Source: an uncultured bacterium
Lineage (GTDB): Bacteria; Cyanobacteriota; Vampirovibrionia; Gastranaerophilales; Gastranaerophilaceae
DNA: 51,833 nucleotides
Direction: 5' to 3'
Assembly (NCBI GenBank): GCA_902791985.1
Contig: CADAYD010000009.1
Span: forward strand, 1-51,833
Both the position numbers and the translations under genes were made by a program. This document shows positions 3,063 through 10,516 of the stretch, one piece after another. The notes under the pieces were generated by a model that worked only from the letters and a program-made list of their open reading frames with translations, searched no databases and was not told the DNA's origin. Numbering within the stretch: the first letter of the stretch is position 1; the number at the start of each line of letters is the position of its first letter.

Positions 3063-3368
3063 TTATAAGCCGAGGTCTTTTAAAAATTCTTCGTTATTAC
3101 TTAAATCAAATAATATATCATATTCATCAAGTTGTTGATTTTTGACTATATTGTTATGACTTAAATCTTCAGGATCGGATAATGCAAGTTTTGTGAAATT
3201 TTTAATATCTGTCTTTTTTTGATAAAGATTAAGAGCATGTTTGGATAGGCTATTTAAAAAAGTTTTTTGCGCAGAAATTTTTATATTTTCAAACGGAGAA
3301 GATACAGGTAAATCCTGTATATCATTTGCTTTTTTAGATATAAGTTGGCTTGCGAGCTTTTTAAACAT
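3063..3368 (-). CDS. Hypothetical protein, 101 aa
   Basis: I do not recognise this protein. It is lysine-, serine- and asparagine-rich and predicted helical, with an acidic leucine-rich C-terminus (EEFLKDLGL). It has no signal peptide, membrane segment or cysteine motif. The ATG at 3368 is preceded by a weak GGGATAAG site. A TATAAT about 30 bases further upstream could be its -10. It is divergent from the large zinc-ribbon gene starting at 3485 and does not look coupled to the peptidase gene downstream. Confidence 0.55.
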   Translation of the reverse strand: MFKKLASQLISKKANDIQDLPVSSPFENIKISAQKTFLNSLSKHALNLYQKKTDIKNFTKLALSDPEDLSHNNIVKNQQLDEYDILFDLSNNEEFLKDLGL

Positions 3369-3484: not shown

Positions 3485-6400
3485 ATGGAATGTCCAAAAT
3501 GCGGTGCAGAAATTGATAAAAGCGCAATGGTTTGCCCTAATTGTAAAAAGGTGCTCAAAATCGTTTGCCCTGTCTGTAAAACCGTCAACGAAAAAAATAT
3601 ATGTAAGAAGTGTGGAGAAATTCTGGTTGTAAAATGCTCGAATTGCGGCAAAATCAACATGATGAAAAACCAGAAGTGTGTTAAGTGTGGCCATTCGACA
3701 GAGATTAGTGCTGTTCAGGCGGAGTCTAATGCTGACACTTTTGCTGTTGTTAAAATTGAATTTCCTAATTATGATTTAATAAAAACATCGTTAGGCTCTA
3801 ATCAGTTATTTACAAAATTTAAGGCAAATATCGACAAATTGATAAACGGGTATGCTGTGAGCCAAAATGTCAGGCGTCAGGTCTTAAAAAACGGCATTTA
3901 CCTTATCCGTTTTAACAAGGCATATACCCTTCAATCTTCCGCTAATTCGGCAATGGAGGGAATAATTGCTCTTGCGAATATGATTACTCGCTTGAATGTT
4001 AAGCTCATAAATAAGAAAAATATCTTTTTAAAAGCGAATTTTACTATTATGAAGCGTGATGCGGATAAAGATCCTTATGATATAGAAACAGGATTTAAGG
4101 CAAACATGCTTAGCCAAAGTAATGATAAATCAGCGAAGGCGCTTGATTCCTGCCAAGTTACAACAGATGATGATTTTGAAGAATTTTATTCAAAAACTTA
4201 TAAAATGGAATCTTTGGATTCTGCGCTGGTAAACGGTCGTTTAAAGAGATTTTTCCAGATTGATATAAGAGAATTTATAAATATTGATGATTATATTAAA
4301 GAGGCGATGGCTGAGGAAGAAGAAGCAAATCCTGAGGTTCCTAATTTTGTGAACGAGGGTATGCTTGCTCAAGACAAAATTGTTGAAAGAACAATGGAGG
4401 AAGTCAATGAAATCGCAGGTGAAGAACTGTATAATGTTGATTTGATTGATTTTGATGAGATTAATTGTGCTTTCTATACTACAGACAACGTACGTGTCCT
4501 TGAAAATGTTACGGACGTATTAAAAGAGGTCCCTAAAGGTATAATCGGTATAAAAGGTTCAAGTATGTATCAGCCTTATACTATCAGCCTTTTGGAGAGT
4601 GTAAGTAAGCTTGGTTTGTTCAGCAATATTATTCCGATTACGTGTCATGAAAATATGAAATATTCTCCGTATTCATTCTTCAGAGAATTGGTTTCATCAA
4701 TATTTAATTTCACAGTTTCTCAAAAATTATCATCTACAAATGATTATTCTGCATTTTCTCAATTCGATACGAATAATCTGATAAGAGATTTAATTAATTT
4801 AAAGCAAAGAGGAATGGATAATCTTACTGATACAAGACAGAGTTGCTTTGAAGTTTTCTTGGCATTGTTAAAATCAATTCCTGATACATTGATATATGTA
4901 GAGAATTTTGACAAAATTGATTCAAGTTCAATGTTCGTATTAGGTCTGTTATTTGACCATTTCGAGGAGATGGGAATAAGTTGTATTCTCTCTTATGACA
5001 AAGAATTTTCACTTCATAAATATCATCATTTCTTATTATCAAGAGGATATTACACTGAAATAACCCTTATTCCGACGACGTTTGAAAACATTGTTGAAGT
5101 TGGTGGCGATTATTATAAAAATGTAAAAAATGACTTTTTCTTTAAACGAATCGGCAAATATGCCGCAGGTAGTACATTATTTATTGACTATGCAATTCAA
5201 TATTTAATAGAATCCGAAATATATCAAATTGAAAATAATTCATTGGAAATGATTAATGCAAAAACTACGATGATGCCTTCAAGTTTAAAGCTTTTAATGC
5301 AACGAAGATTAAATTTGATGAAAGATGAAGAAGATACATTAAAAGTCTTATCATTAAGTGCATTAATAGGTCCGAGAGTTGATAAGAAAACAGTTGAAAG
5401 TTTTGGAATTGAAGATTGGAAAACTATTGCGGATAATCTTGCAGAACGTGGTTTCTTGTTCTTCTATAATGATTGTTTATATTTCCCTAATTATTCAATT
5501 TTAAGAGAAAATATTCTTGAGATATTTGATGAAGAAAAAATTAAGCAAATTGCACAAGAACTGTTTGATAAAGTTTTTGTAGAAAATATGCCTGCACCTG
5601 AAAAAGCAGCGATGTATGAAGTTCTTGGAGATTCAAAAAAAGTTATATCAGAGTGGGAGAATCTTGCTAATTTAGATTTATCAATGGGTGATTTTTCTGC
5701 ATATTTAAATTGCTCAGGATCTTTAATAAATGCCTTGGATAAGTATGAAAAAGACTGGACTAAGGAAGAATTGGCATCATATAAATCAACTATATATGAA
5801 AATATTTCAAATAATATGTTTGAATACGATCCTGAACAAACCAGAGAAATAGCTGACAAGACATTGGAAGATTTGCAAAATTCTCAAAATGTAAGTAATT
5901 TAGTTGAACTTTGTACAAAAATGATTCAAGGAGCATTAAGTCATGGAGAGTATTTATATGCACTGAGTTTAACGCATAAAGTTTTGACAGCAATGAATGA
6001 TTCATCAATTGATCCGTCGGCAAGTAATTTTGATTTGAAATTTTTATTATTGTCGATAGTTCATATAAAAATTCTGTTTGGTGTTGGTGCTTTTAATGAT
6101 TGTATAGATATCGGGTATAATATTTTCAATGTGCTCGAGGCTTCTAAAATTGATCAAATTGATTTTAATTTGGTTTCAAAAGAAGATTTTAAATATCTTT
6201 TAATTGAAGCAATAGGATATGTTGCAATATCAACGGTTGTCACTTTGCGTGATGATGTTAATGAATTCCTTGAAATTGTAAATAAGTTGTATAGTTTTGT
6301 TCCTAAAGAATACTCAATATTTGTCAAATTACAGGATTTTATAAAAGGCAAAGATATTTCTTTATCTGAAAGTGATAAGGGTAAAAATGCCTTAGCACAA

Positions 6401-6973
6401 ATAATTTATCATATATTAAAAACATTTACTCAACACAAGAATAACCCACAAGAAATGGCAAAGGAGATATACAAAGCCAAATTGATTGCAATGGGTTATG
6501 AAATTTATCCATTCGAATTGTTTGCCGATTTGGTAATAGGTCATTCTTATTCGGAATTGAAATCTTATTACAAAGCATCTTCAATATTGTATGAAGTTGT
6601 CAAGGTTTCAAAGGCGAAAGGTTTAAATGTAATAACATTTGCTGCGTGGTATGTTCTGAGTATAATGAATTTAAAGCTTGGACGTTTTGATATAGCGTTT
6701 GGTATGTTAAATAATTCGTCAATTCAGATGGATAGGCTCGGCGGGGTCAGTGACTATTTGATGTTGCTTATAAAATTCAACATGTATAAATTGATGAAAT
6801 GCTTAAAAGTTGAAGATAAGGCAGAGATATGTCTTGCTCAAGCAAATTATATTGTCAAAAAATATGCATTGAGTTTTAATACTGATGTAGATATTGATAA
6901 GTTCTTGGCTGATAATAATATTGACCTTTCAGGTTTGCCTTTGCAGCAACAAGTTCCGGAAGAAAATAATTAA
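3485..6973 (+). CDS. Zinc-ribbon / pseudo-cyclase / pseudo-STAND / TPR protein
   Basis: A 1162-residue protein. Six CxxC pairs (3/6, 17/20, 28/31, 40/43, 51/54, 65/68) form three zinc ribbons. Residues about 86-240 resemble the fold order of a class III cyclase, but the metal aspartates are replaced: FADIVGF-like becomes IEFPNYD at 91-97, and GDG becomes K135-N136-G137. Residues about 350-620 resemble an AAA_16/STAND ATPase. The P-loop position reads GIIGIKGSSM (from 352) with no GK[ST], and the Walker B position is LIYVENFDKID (469-479). The C-terminal half is helical and TPR-like. The known active relatives are cyclase-ATPase-TPR signalling proteins. I infer a catalytically dead scaffold or regulator. 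It precedes glgA by about 50 bases, and a true cyclase lies 1.5 kb further on the opposite strand. Confidence 0.6.
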   Translation: MECPKCGAEIDKSAMVCPNCKKVLKIVCPVCKTVNEKNICKKCGEILVVKCSNCGKINMMKNQKCVKCGHSTEISAVQAESNADTFAVVKIEFPNYDLIKTSLGSNQLFTKFKANIDKLINGYAVSQNVRRQVLKNGIYLIRFNKAYTLQSSANSAMEGIIALANMITRLNVKLINKKNIFLKANFTIMKRDADKDPYDIETGFKANMLSQSNDKSAKALDSCQVTTDDDFEEFYSKTYKMESLDSALVNGRLKRFFQIDIREFINIDDYIKEAMAEEEEANPEVPNFVNEGMLAQDKIVERTMEEVNEIAGEELYNVDLIDFDEINCAFYTTDNVRVLENVTDVLKEVPKGIIGIKGSSMYQPYTISLLESVSKLGLFSNIIPITCHENMKYSPYSFFRELVSSIFNFTVSQKLSSTNDYSAFSQFDTNNLIRDLINLKQRGMDNLTDTRQSCFEVFLALLKSIPDTLIYVENFDKIDSSSMFVLGLLFDHFEEMGISCILSYDKEFSLHKYHHFLLSRGYYTEITLIPTTFENIVEVGGDYYKNVKNDFFFKRIGKYAAGSTLFIDYAIQYLIESEIYQIENNSLEMINAKTTMMPSSLKLLMQRRLNLMKDEEDTLKVLSLSALIGPRVDKKTVESFGIEDWKTIADNLAERGFLFFYNDCLYFPNYSILRENILEIFDEEKIKQIAQELFDKVFVENMPAPEKAAMYEVLGDSKKVISEWENLANLDLSMGDFSAYLNCSGSLINALDKYEKDWTKEELASYKSTIYENISNNMFEYDPEQTREIADKTLEDLQNSQNVSNLVELCTKMIQGALSHGEYLYALSLTHKVLTAMNDSSIDPSASNFDLKFLLLSIVHIKILFGVGAFNDCIDIGYNIFNVLEASKIDQIDFNLVSKEDFKYLLIEAIGYVAISTVVTLRDDVNEFLEIVNKLYSFVPKEYSIFVKLQDFIKGKDISLSESDKGKNALAQIIYHILKTFTQHKNNPQEMAKEIYKAKLIAMGYEIYPFELFADLVIGHSYSELKSYYKASSILYEVVKVSKAKGLNVITFAAWYVLSIMNLKLGRFDIAFGMLNNSSIQMDRLGGVSDYLMLLIKFNMYKLMKCLKVEDKAEICLAQANYIVKKYALSFNTDVDIDKFLADNNIDLSGLPLQQQVPEENN

Positions 6974-7022
6974 GGTTTTATAATCCGTTAAAAGTTTAGT
7001 GTTCAGAAGAAAGAGAGGAAAA

Positions 7023-8474
7023 ATGAAGATTTTATTTGCAGCAGCTGAGGTTGCTCCTTTTTCAAAGGCCGGCGGGCTTGCCGATGTGGTTGGCAGTTTG
7101 CCAAAAGAGCTTGAACGTGATGCTCAAATTGCCATATTCACTCCTCTGCACGGATTTATTGATAAAGATAAATGGGGTATAAAAGAACTCGAAAACTCAG
7201 AGATGTGGCTTACTATGGGTTCTCAGCCGCAAAAATTTAATCTTTTTATGACAAAACTTCCGGGAACAGATATAAATGTTTTCTTTGTAAAAAACGATTG
7301 GTATTTTTCTCCGTTTCATGAAGTTTATCCAAAGTATTTAGATCCGCGCTATGAACATGAAAGATATATTTCATTCTGTCTTGCGGTTATGGAATACGCA
7401 AAGCAGCTAAATTTCAGGGCAGATGTTATTCATGCAAATGATTGGCACACTGCGATGATGCCATTATACCTTCATTCAAACTATAAGTTCGACCCGTTTT
7501 GGTCAAATACAAAATGCGTGTTTGAAATTCATAACCTTGCATATCAAGGTGTGTGGTTTGAGGATGTCATTGATTATGCAAATATGCGCAAAGATATTGT
7601 CTATAATCAGTGGGGTTGCGAACATTATGGAATGGTTAACTGGATGAAAGGAGCAATAAATTATTCTGATAGAGTTGTTGCTGTTTCTCCGACGTATTCA
7701 CGTGAAATTTTAACCGGTGAATACGGTGAAGGCTTGGATTATACTCTCAGAATGTCTCAGAGTAAATTAAAAGGGATATTAAATGGCATTGATTACTCAG
7801 TTTTTGACCCTAAAAAAGACAAAGCGTTAATTAAAAACTATGATGTGAGTACGTTTGAACTTAAAGAAGAAAACAAAAAAGCTGTTTGTCAGTATTTCGG
7901 ACTTAAATATAATCCAAAGCGTCCTTTGATTGCTTTGATTTCACGTTTAGTAGATCAAAAGGGTATTGATTTAATTCGTGATATGCAATATGAACTTCAA
8001 AATTTGGACGCCGATTTTGTTTTTCTTGGCAGTGGAGACAACTCATATGAGAACCTGTTTATTTGGCTTTCTAACAATACCCCGAATATTCGCACTTATG
8101 TCGGGTATGACGGGAAGTTAGCAAATTTAATTTATGCCGGTAGTGACTTTTTCTTGATGCCGTCAAAATTTGAGCCTTGCGGATTGAGTCAATTGATTGC
8201 GATGCGCTATGGATCGTTGCCTATAGTAAGGGCAACAGGCGGGCTTGAGGATACTGTTACAGGTTATCCGCTTGATAATTCCAACGGGTTTAAGTTCTGG
8301 AATTATAACGGTTGGGATATGCTAAATGCAATTAAATGTGCATTGTGGGTTTATCAGGACAAGTATGTTTTTAATGCTATGCGCAAATCTGCTATGGAAG
8401 CTGATTTTTCTTGGAAACGCAGTGCAAAACAATATCTGAACATGTATAAAGAAATTACAGGTGATAGACACTAG
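7023..8474 (+). CDS. glgA: Glycogen synthase (GT5)
   Basis: A 483-residue GT5 glycosyltransferase that adds glucose from ADP-glucose to the non-reducing end of a growing alpha-1,4-glucan. The N-terminal MKILFAAAEVAPFSKAGGLA carries the ADP-glucose-binding KAGGLADV motif. HANDWHT and IHNLAYQG follow in the N-terminal Rossmann domain. The C-terminal domain has LISRLVDQKG, FLMPSKFEPCGLSQ and ATGGLEDTV. Length matches the family. The ATG at 7023 is preceded by AGAGAGG; an upstream in-frame GTG at 6999 is less likely. It follows the zinc-ribbon gene on the same strand with about 50 bases between, so co-transcription is likely. Other glycogen genes are not in the window. Confidence 0.95.
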   Translation: MKILFAAAEVAPFSKAGGLADVVGSLPKELERDAQIAIFTPLHGFIDKDKWGIKELENSEMWLTMGSQPQKFNLFMTKLPGTDINVFFVKNDWYFSPFHEVYPKYLDPRYEHERYISFCLAVMEYAKQLNFRADVIHANDWHTAMMPLYLHSNYKFDPFWSNTKCVFEIHNLAYQGVWFEDVIDYANMRKDIVYNQWGCEHYGMVNWMKGAINYSDRVVAVSPTYSREILTGEYGEGLDYTLRMSQSKLKGILNGIDYSVFDPKKDKALIKNYDVSTFELKEENKKAVCQYFGLKYNPKRPLIALISRLVDQKGIDLIRDMQYELQNLDADFVFLGSGDNSYENLFIWLSNNTPNIRTYVGYDGKLANLIYAGSDFFLMPSKFEPCGLSQLIAMRYGSLPIVRATGGLEDTVTGYPLDNSNGFKFWNYNGWDMLNAIKCALWVYQDKYVFNAMRKSAMEADFSWKRSAKQYLNMYKEITGDRH

Positions 8475-8512: not shown

Positions 8513-10516
8513 TTACTTTTCCAAATCCATTCTCAATACTTCGTAAATGTCCATCTTTTTCGATTTCCCGCGGATTTGAACTTCCTTAATTTTTATTACA
8601 TCGGCGCAATCAGAAATGTGGTTGTATGTTGAAGTGCTTACAAGCAAATTTGTCTTATAAACCTTGTTGTACCCCTCAATTCTGCTGGCAAGGTTGACGT
8701 TATCCCCTATTGCAGTGTATTCCATTCTGTTTTCGGTACCGATATTACCGATAAATACTTCTCCTGTATTTATGCCGATTCCGATTTCAAAACGCGGTTT
8801 ACCTTCCGCAAGCCAATTCTCTCTTAAGTGCTCAACTTCTTTGAGCATTTCGTATGCACATTTAACGGCGTTTCTCGGATGGTTGAGGTCTTGTATCGGT
8901 TCTCCGAAGATAACCATTATAGCGTCGCCAATAAATTTATTTATTACCCCGTTATATTTGCGGATAATAGGTTCCATATGCGCAAAATATTCGTTTAAAA
9001 TTTTTGAAACTTCATCTGCAGGCATTTTTTCGCTCATACTTGTAAATCCGCGAATATCAGAAAAAAGTATGGTAACGATTGCTCTTTTTCCTCCGAGCCC
9101 AAGATTTTCAATGTCTTTTATTATGTTTTGCATTACGTCTTGGGATAAATATTTTCCCATAGCCGTTTTTATTTGTTCTTTGTTACGACTTTCGTTGAGA
9201 AATTTGAAAGTATATGCAAATATTGCTGTTACAAATTGGCAAATTAGCGGTGATGCGTATTCGGTGACGTATCCGTTTATTGCAAGCATTGTAATAATAA
9301 ATAAGTATAATAAATCCAGACTGATAAGAGTTATAAGTCCTTTTAAAAATCTTGCACGAAGAATTATTATAAATGTTGGGATGCATAAAAGTATAAAGAT
9401 TAGAAAATTAATACCTTTACCGCTATTATTTAATAAAATTTGAGAATAAAGATTGTCATATACACTTGCCTGTATATCAACTCCGGGATGTCTTGTATCC
9501 ATAGGAGTTCGCAAAACATCAGTGCCGGGACCGGATATGTTTTCTCCGATAAAAATAATTTTATCGTTAAATAAAGCAGGATCTATAAGTGAATTTGGAT
9601 CTTTAAGATTGTATAATTCTGGGGCTGTTTTTGGGGTAAGACCTTTTTGAAGTGCTTTGTACGTATCTAAAAGTTTGAATGCAGAAATAGCATTGTGTGA
9701 ATATGTTATCTTTTGGTTGTTATTCCAAGGGAAATCATAATATCTTATAGGAGTATAGAAAAAACCGTTTTCGTATTTATAAGGAATTTTTAATCCTGTA
9801 GATGGTACCAAAATGTAATTATCATAAATAGAAATTTCATTTGTATTGTTTGCAAGCAAATACATTTTGAATGATAAGGATGGGTAGTATGCATTTCTAA
9901 TTTTTACAATGTTAATCGTGTCAAAAATGAAATCCGAGGTGTTGTCTTTGTTAATAATGACTGAACCGAAATGTTTGGTGCTATTTCTTAAATTATCGGA
10001 ATAACTCAAAATACCATTTTGAGCCGTCATAGATTGATTTTGAACATCTTTTATTACGTTCAATGAATGTTTCTGTTTAAAATTGTTTATAAAACTTCCA
10101 TCGGAGTTATTTTTATCTTCTTCAGGAACAAACGCTGAAACAAGATTATTCATTTTTGAAACTTGATTAACAAATAGAGGGGCGCTATTATCTCCATTAT
10201 CTCGAACAGAAGTGTAAGTAATGTCTAAACCTATAATCTTGGGTTTTGCATAAGAATAGAAATAATCAAGTAAATCCGTAATGATTATTTTTTTAGGGTC
10301 ATTGCGCCAATTATATTTTTGGTTTGTGACATCATCAAAAACAACCTCAATTATATTTTCATTAGGTTCTTCGATTTTTGAAATAATATTTGACATCAAA
10401 AAGCTATATGCAAACGGTTGTATAAATCTATTGGCAATAAAAACAAATATAATAATAAGTAACATGTATATTAAGAACGAATATAAATAAAACAGTTTAT
10501 TTTTTAACTTTTTCAT
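8513..10516 (-). CDS. CHASE2-domain adenylate/guanylate cyclase
   Basis: A 667-residue membrane receptor cyclase. A first membrane segment (about residues 10-33) is followed by a large extracytoplasmic CHASE2-like sensor (about 45-360, with DPALFNDKIIFIGE and a PGVDIQA motif). Then come two or three membrane segments (about 370-440) and a C-terminal class III cyclase domain. The two metal aspartates are present: D487 in FSDIRGFT and D531 in GDAIMVIF, 44 residues apart as usual. K in INKF and the transition-state pair in DNVNLASR are also present, so it should be active. The lysine favours ATP, giving cAMP. The signal sensed is unknown. The ATG has AAGGGG upstream. It is convergent with glgA and divergent from eda. 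Confidence 0.9.
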   Translation of the reverse strand: MKKLKNKLFYLYSFLIYMLLIIIFVFIANRFIQPFAYSFLMSNIISKIEEPNENIIEVVFDDVTNQKYNWRNDPKKIIITDLLDYFYSYAKPKIIGLDITYTSVRDNGDNSAPLFVNQVSKMNNLVSAFVPEEDKNNSDGSFINNFKQKHSLNVIKDVQNQSMTAQNGILSYSDNLRNSTKHFGSVIINKDNTSDFIFDTINIVKIRNAYYPSLSFKMYLLANNTNEISIYDNYILVPSTGLKIPYKYENGFFYTPIRYYDFPWNNNQKITYSHNAISAFKLLDTYKALQKGLTPKTAPELYNLKDPNSLIDPALFNDKIIFIGENISGPGTDVLRTPMDTRHPGVDIQASVYDNLYSQILLNNSGKGINFLIFILLCIPTFIIILRARFLKGLITLISLDLLYLFIITMLAINGYVTEYASPLICQFVTAIFAYTFKFLNESRNKEQIKTAMGKYLSQDVMQNIIKDIENLGLGGKRAIVTILFSDIRGFTSMSEKMPADEVSKILNEYFAHMEPIIRKYNGVINKFIGDAIMVIFGEPIQDLNHPRNAVKCAYEMLKEVEHLRENWLAEGKPRFEIGIGINTGEVFIGNIGTENRMEYTAIGDNVNLASRIEGYNKVYKTNLLVSTSTYNHISDCADVIKIKEVQIRGKSKKMDIYEVLRMDLEK

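Follow-up and report, generated by a model that had tools for sequence, protein, structure and literature searches.

A conserved pseudoenzyme with predicted cyclase and STAND folds, encoded beside glycogen synthase in Gastranaerophilales

STAND proteins are thought to operate through an ATP switch, and cyclases to act by making cyclic nucleotides, which raises the question of what a protein might do that carries both folds and lacks key residues for both activities. Such a protein is encoded in a stretch of 51,833 nucleotides from an uncultured bacterium of the Gastranaerophilaceae (Cyanobacteriota; Vampirovibrionia; Gastranaerophilales), the whole of which is referred to below as the window (GenBank assembly GCA_902791985.1, 1.9 Mb in 34 contigs; contig CADAYD010000009.1, positions 1 to 51,833, forward strand). 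The gene is a single uninterrupted open reading frame (ORF) of 1162 amino acids at 3485-6973 on the plus strand, directly upstream of glgA, the glycogen synthase gene. Here, we describe the protein as a catalytically incomplete, derived relative of class III cyclases and STAND nucleoside triphosphatases (NTPases), belonging to a pseudoenzyme family that spans many genera of gut bacteria and has kept both folds although key residues of each are missing. Conservation of the gene immediately before glgA suggests that the protein is a non-enzymatic partner of glycogen synthase. Its closest relatives come from rumen and gut metagenome-assembled genomes (MAGs), and most or all of the genomes compared are MAGs.

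Predicted folds and missing residues

The ratio of nonsynonymous to synonymous substitution rates (dN/dS) between close pairs was ~0.03-0.1 overall, indicating strong purifying selection; together with the intact orthologues, this rules out a decaying gene. An AlphaFold2 model built with 56 orthologues reached a mean predicted local distance difference test score (pLDDT) of 86.5, with the predicted domain order zinc ribbons, class III cyclase fold, STAND NTPase core and TPR solenoid. Only the zinc ribbons scored above Pfam cut-offs (DZR), the adenylate cyclase family PF00211 gave no match at E up to 1, and a sequence search of the PDB with the protein returned neither a cyclase nor a STAND match; structure comparison alone gave both. 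As a separate observation, the orthologue at one locus (L009, genome G032) is broken by a stop codon or a change of frame, the sole clear break among the genus orthologues read.

Compared by VIA, residues ~335-780 matched the STAND structures 6mfv (Z 15.5), MalT (8bob, Z 14.9) and Apaf-1 (3sfz, Z 14.4), and the best structural matches over residues 700-1159 were TPR solenoids. Residues 74-263, modelled alone with a pLDDT of 89.1, matched Pseudomonas CyaB (3r5g; VIA Z 17.3, root-mean-square deviation 2.7, 170 residues aligned), CyaC (1wc0; VIA Z 16.6) and Rv1625c (4p2f; Foldseek E 3.6e-7). At the profile level, the STAND region aligned with that of relatives whose P-loop is intact (hhalign probability 99.7, E 1.1e-26, ~300 columns). 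Because of these structure matches and the STAND profile match, the domain order proposed in an earlier sequence-only reading is right, as was its description of a long, intact gene, and the predicted folds are indeed related to class III cyclases and STAND proteins.

That reading also held both catalytic domains to be apparently dead, and family alignment bears this out in part. At the former P-loop site, where relatives carry G/A-x-x-G-x-G-K-[ST], the protein has GIIGIKGSSMYQPYT at residues 352-366. The claimed loss of GK[ST] extends to the whole clade: none of the 76 glgA-clade members aligned carries the Walker A motif G-x4-G-K-[ST], nor do the unlinked lineages, and no clade member with an intact P-loop was found. 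Tyr362, Pro364 and Tyr365 are ~95% conserved, so the site is more than an eroded P-loop. The P-loop-less state, being common to the whole clade and under strong purifying selection, is attributable neither to chance nor to decay. The closest members outside the clade show intermediate forms (GETNTGKLN in L032, GNKEKGIKF in L033). Proteins of genera g29 and g39 (L164-L168, L174), which are not encoded beside glgA, carry a partial P-loop, with NGKL in some; an unannotated protein of ~188 amino acids comes next in L164 and L168. The Walker B region had been called degraded, but YVENFDKIDSSS aligns with IEDFEFIDSLS of P-loop-intact relatives, residue 473 is Glu in 75 of the 76 members and Asp in one, Asp479 and Ser482 are invariant, and residue 474 is Asn or Asp except in a single member; comparison with the P-loop-intact relatives thus rules out degradation.

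The metal aspartates of the cyclase, likewise reported as gone, are so at one site only. The metal-B position is not conserved, with Asp in 14 of 76 members and Gly (as in the window protein), Glu, other residues or nothing in the rest, but the metal-A position, Glu92 here, is Asp or Glu in 69 of 76. Invariant Phe93 and Arg142 and near-invariant Pro94-Asn95 surround the old active site, and no transition-state Asn-Arg pair is conserved in the corresponding stretch of the family alignment, where the profile alignment is weak. The hhalign comparison of the clade's cyclase-like domain with the real cyclases of the order was weak, and so was a profile match that took in the wider family (61%, E 8e-5); homology of this domain to cyclases is suggested by the predicted fold together with the latter match. 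Since the residues that define active class III cyclases and active STAND NTPases were looked for and are missing, the protein falls outside both groups, and the modelled structure supports its description as a pseudoenzyme that has been conserved and that combines a cyclase fold with a STAND fold.

Linkage to glgA and origin of the family

The gene order was surveyed in loci from 80 species representatives, 75 of which could be tested for the downstream gene. The gene directly downstream belongs to the glgA cluster in 74 of the 75; at the lone exception (L101), a small ORF intervenes and glgA follows. In the same survey, the upstream genes formed 12 clusters, and those on the far side of glgA formed 25. 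Among 145 genomes of the order, 106 carry a full-length clade member, and in 83 of the 84 genomes of linked lineages glgA directly follows the pseudoenzyme gene on the same strand, at a distance of 11-229 nt or, once, 816 nt; G147 is unlinked although it belongs to a linked genus. In ~31-33 of the 75 loci, the two genes share 1 or 4 nt, the stop codon of the first running into the start of glgA (TAATG or ATGA); most of these loci have a ribosome-binding-like GAGG within the pseudoenzyme gene, near its 3' end, and most non-overlapping loci have 10-73 nt between the two genes. No plus-strand terminator-like site was found between them in the window. The glycogen synthase neighbour, correctly placed by the sequence-only reading but given there as context only, is probably the important partner (Table 1). 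No description of the gene pair was found in the literature searched, an absence that proves nothing.

The two genes have also been lost together. Within genus g22, G070 retains the pair despite a differing downstream neighbourhood (L206), and G102 has neither gene while retaining glgC and a P-loop-intact paralogue. The downstream flank in G102 is contiguous and runs into another gene on the same contig, and G102 represents one joint loss of the pseudoenzyme gene and glgA. Separately, L204:11800-12300 has matches at numerous positions spread over G091 and G102 and is probably a dispersed repeat. Whole-genome searches of G000 (the window's own genome), G070, G091 and G127 found glgC and no match to the branching enzyme TIGR01515, a role that another type may serve.

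Table 1. Features of the pseudoenzyme locus, in window coordinates.
Feature	Position	Strand	Basis
Coding sequence of the double pseudoenzyme (pseudo-cyclase / P-loop-less STAND), 1162 aa	3485..6973	+	ORF, orthologues, AlphaFold2 model, dN/dS
Zinc ribbons, residues 1-72, 12 invariant Cys (CxxC at 3/6, 17/20, 28/31, 40/43, 51/54, 65/68)	3485..3700	+	Pfam DZR E 1.7e-10, invariant columns
Class III cyclase fold, residues 74-263, catalytically incomplete	3704..4273	+	Domain model pLDDT 89.1, VIA, Foldseek
Glu92 (IEFPN), metal-A position, D or E in 69/76 members	3758..3760	+	Family alignment
Residues 135-137, metal-B position, Asp not conserved	3887..3895	+	Family alignment
Pseudo nucleotide-binding core of STAND module, residues 329-545	4469..5119	+	hhalign, VIA
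Former P-loop, residues 353-367, now I-x-x-[ILV]-[KR]-x-x-x-x-Y-x-P-Y-[ST]	4541..4585	+	Family alignment
Walker B region, residues 468-482, retained	4886..4930	+	Family alignment
Winged-helix / arm part of STAND module, residues 546-700	5120..5584	+	AlphaFold2 model, VIA
TPR-like alpha-solenoid, residues 701-1150 (sensor or docking part)	5585..6934	+	Model secondary structure, VIA
49-nt intergenic gap with ribosome-binding-like GAGAGG	6974..7022	+	Window sequence, terminator search
glgA, glycogen synthase, conserved partner gene; alternative GTG start 6999	7023..8474	+	Pfam Glyco_transf_5 1.7e-68; TIGR02095 504 bits
CHASE2 class III cyclase, intact metal sites, convergent, not counted as part of the system	8513..10516	-	Pfam, locus comparison

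The order, and those sister families of the class that were examined, contain relatives with an intact P-loop (L031, L034-L048, L179-L183, L243-L254). Such relatives share common ancestry with the pseudoenzymes, as well as the STAND and TPR parts and, mostly, the zinc ribbons, and their cyclase-like domain, where present, also lacks a full metal site; they differ in an intact P-loop of the G-x-x-G-x-G-K-[ST] type. No glgA was found in the order-level loci of these relatives checked with the window GlgA. In the tree, the root of which is not fixed, the P-loop-less proteins form one clade with a Shimodaira-Hasegawa-like approximate likelihood ratio (SH-aLRT) support of 100, and the glgA-linked genus g37 groups with the unlinked g30/g31; the linkage had either a single origin followed by loss in g30/g31, or two origins. 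Because P-loop-intact relatives across the class share the half-lost cyclase state, with metal-A kept and metal-B lost, the loss in the cyclase is old and that of the P-loop derived. Cyclase catalysis was probably already lost in the common ancestor of the class, and the order of events can be read as class-wide cyclase loss, then P-loop loss, then coupling to glgA inside the P-loop-less clade. A search among the PF00211 cyclases of 60 genomes revealed no active long cyclase-STAND ancestor inside the order, as none of these cyclases lies in a frame of more than ~800 aa. The window's own genome encodes a P-loop-intact paralogue of 985 aa (GEKGCGKTS; G000:C2:86899-89844, L031:2388-5345) that is without the cyclase-like domain and has a sigma-factor-like gene (206 aa) as its immediate upstream neighbour, and such a paralogue is present in nearly all Gastranaerophilaceae genomes searched.

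Possible roles at glycogen synthase

A conserved dead protein is encoded almost always before, and often overlapping, glgA, and therefore probably controls or scaffolds glycogen synthesis and is no enzyme; with moderate confidence, we take it to be a multidomain protein of STAND type that partners glycogen synthase without being an enzyme itself. Its ancestor would have been a zinc-ribbon/cyclase-fold/STAND-ATPase/TPR protein in which cyclase catalysis was probably gone by the class ancestor and the P-loop was lost thereafter. Because no aligned clade member has a P-loop, the normal STAND ADP/ATP switch should no longer run, and what remains would be a scaffold that still folds and bears zinc ribbons and an extended TPR solenoid. 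Assuming one transcript, the protein and GlgA are most likely made from a shared mRNA, often through coupled translation. It may bind GlgA, or GlgA together with nascent glucan, and may thereby set the activity, stability or location of GlgA, in whichever direction, when the TPR part and/or the vestigial cyclase fold senses some ligand or partner.

Several points weigh against this interpretation. Clade members unlinked to glgA are carried by 22 genomes (genera g29, g30, g31, g39), so that partnership with GlgA is either a later speciality or independent of linkage; the loci examined in these lineages have no common neighbour of obvious meaning. Co-transcription alone could serve balanced expression or another step of glycogen metabolism, and the loss of both genes together was seen once only, in a MAG. 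More specifically, and only tentatively, the protein may be a dedicated GlgA regulator, that is, a P-loop-less STAND scaffold that binds GlgA, is co-supplied by coupled translation, and senses glucan, a sugar nucleotide or another signal without an ATP switch. A GlgA regulator would constitute a new control point in bacterial glycogen synthesis, beyond GlgC, because in the classical pathway regulation is placed at ADP-glucose pyrophosphorylase (AGPase)/GlgC (2024 review, PMC11046441). If so, the family would also be a natural test of what STAND proteins are capable of without nucleotide.

Among known systems, STAND NTPases with a TPR sensor (the 6mfv protein, MalT) share the order of nucleotide-binding domain, winged helix, arm and TPR, and the retained Walker B, whereas the protein described here has no P-loop, bears additional zinc ribbons and a cyclase fold in front, and is encoded beside glgA. 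The LuxR-type helix-turn-helix at the C-terminus of MalT has no counterpart in the 1162-aa protein (Pfam, E up to 1), which ends in the TPR solenoid. Mammalian soluble adenylyl cyclase, bacterial cyclase-AAA_16 fusions and the TIGR03903 TOMM kinase/cyclase fusion share the order cyclase, STAND, TPR; in the present family, by contrast, the metal-B acid and Asn-Arg pair are not conserved and the P-loop is gone. One relative (L039) matches TIGR03903 across its STAND region (E 2.9e-19).

The nearest concept to the pairing of pseudoenzyme and GlgA is BcsE, the regulator of E. coli-type cellulose synthase, in which the synthase is served by a diguanylate cyclase domain incapable of catalysis and a RecA-like NTPase domain whose Walker A has diverged (PMC7439463). 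Our protein may work like BcsE, with a dead cyclase and a diverged NTPase in the service of a polysaccharide synthase, a likeness of concept for which no homology is claimed: incomplete active sites and a synthase neighbour are seen here, and service to GlgA would be the corresponding role. BcsE differs in its RecA-like, REC* and GGDEF* domains, in that order (the fold matched in our protein is that of class III cyclases), in binding cyclic di-GMP (c-di-GMP), and in acting on a membrane cellulose synthase. PelD, as described in the same source (PMC7439463), is a degenerate GGDEF regulator and the c-di-GMP receptor of the Pel polysaccharide, and so resembles our protein in the repurposing of a dead nucleotide-cyclase fold for control of polysaccharide synthesis, but it binds c-di-GMP, belongs to another polysaccharide system and has an unrelated architecture.

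Control might instead be exerted on expression, with the zinc-ribbon/TPR protein binding nucleic acid or RNA polymerase to control the glg genes or carbon storage, and its location upstream of glgA allowing autoregulation similar to that of MalT with the maltose genes. Zinc ribbons are common as nucleic-acid binders; MalT, itself a STAND-TPR regulator with a link to glucan metabolism, is among the closest structures to the STAND part, and the P-loop-intact paralogue of the own genome adjoins the sigma-factor-like gene. We nevertheless consider an expression regulator unlikely, as no DNA-binding helix-turn-helix scored above Pfam cut-offs, a Mor-family match, which lies over the cyclase fold, does not reach the cut-off (E 0.02), glgC is on another contig, and the start/stop overlap with glgA suits a stoichiometric partnership better.

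A special case of the GlgA-partner explanation is a sensor of nucleotide or sugar nucleotide without turnover, in which the vestigial cyclase pocket would be a putative ATP, ADP or ADP-glucose site reporting to GlgA. The conserved metal-A acid and the invariant or near-invariant residues at the old active site are consistent with such a pocket, and BcsE retains ligand binding in its dead diguanylate cyclase domain (PMC7439463), but with the second metal acid lost and the Asn-Arg pair not conserved in the family, this version is quite improbable.

We give slightly less credence still to a dead partner, forming a hetero-oligomer with the P-loop-intact STAND paralogue in the manner of NLR sensor/helper pairs and linking that paralogue to glycogen synthesis. 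Both proteins have zinc ribbons, STAND and TPR in common and the paralogue is nearly ubiquitous in the family, the own genome included, but no linkage was seen between the dead and P-loop-intact genes, and paralogue-type proteins do not need the dead one, as they are also present where it is absent (e.g. g33, g36, g38 and G102). Least probable of all is an ordinary operon passenger of unrelated function, co-transcribed with glgA by chance, to which the unlinked clade members of unassigned function would conform but against which speak an adjacency that persists when both outer neighbours change, down to 32% identity, the codon overlap and the joint loss.

Other genes of the window

The sequence-only reading had pointed to a live CHASE2 cyclase nearby as a possible partner. 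The cyclase is present, on the opposite strand beyond glgA, and keeps both metal aspartates; it is the sole PF00211 protein of its genome, and a single such protein is found in most genomes of the family. Pairing with the pseudoenzyme is not supported, however, and we reject it because the adjacency is limited to close relatives: the cyclase flanks the gene pair in 5 of 80 loci, all from the nearest relatives, and is located elsewhere in most other genomes that have one. Upstream of the pseudoenzyme gene, a 101-aa ORF on the opposite strand (3063-3368), without a family match, is conserved in close relatives only, and a 575-aa protein (1245-2972), without a Pfam match, carries a HENAH (HExxH) motif and is a possible metallopeptidase.

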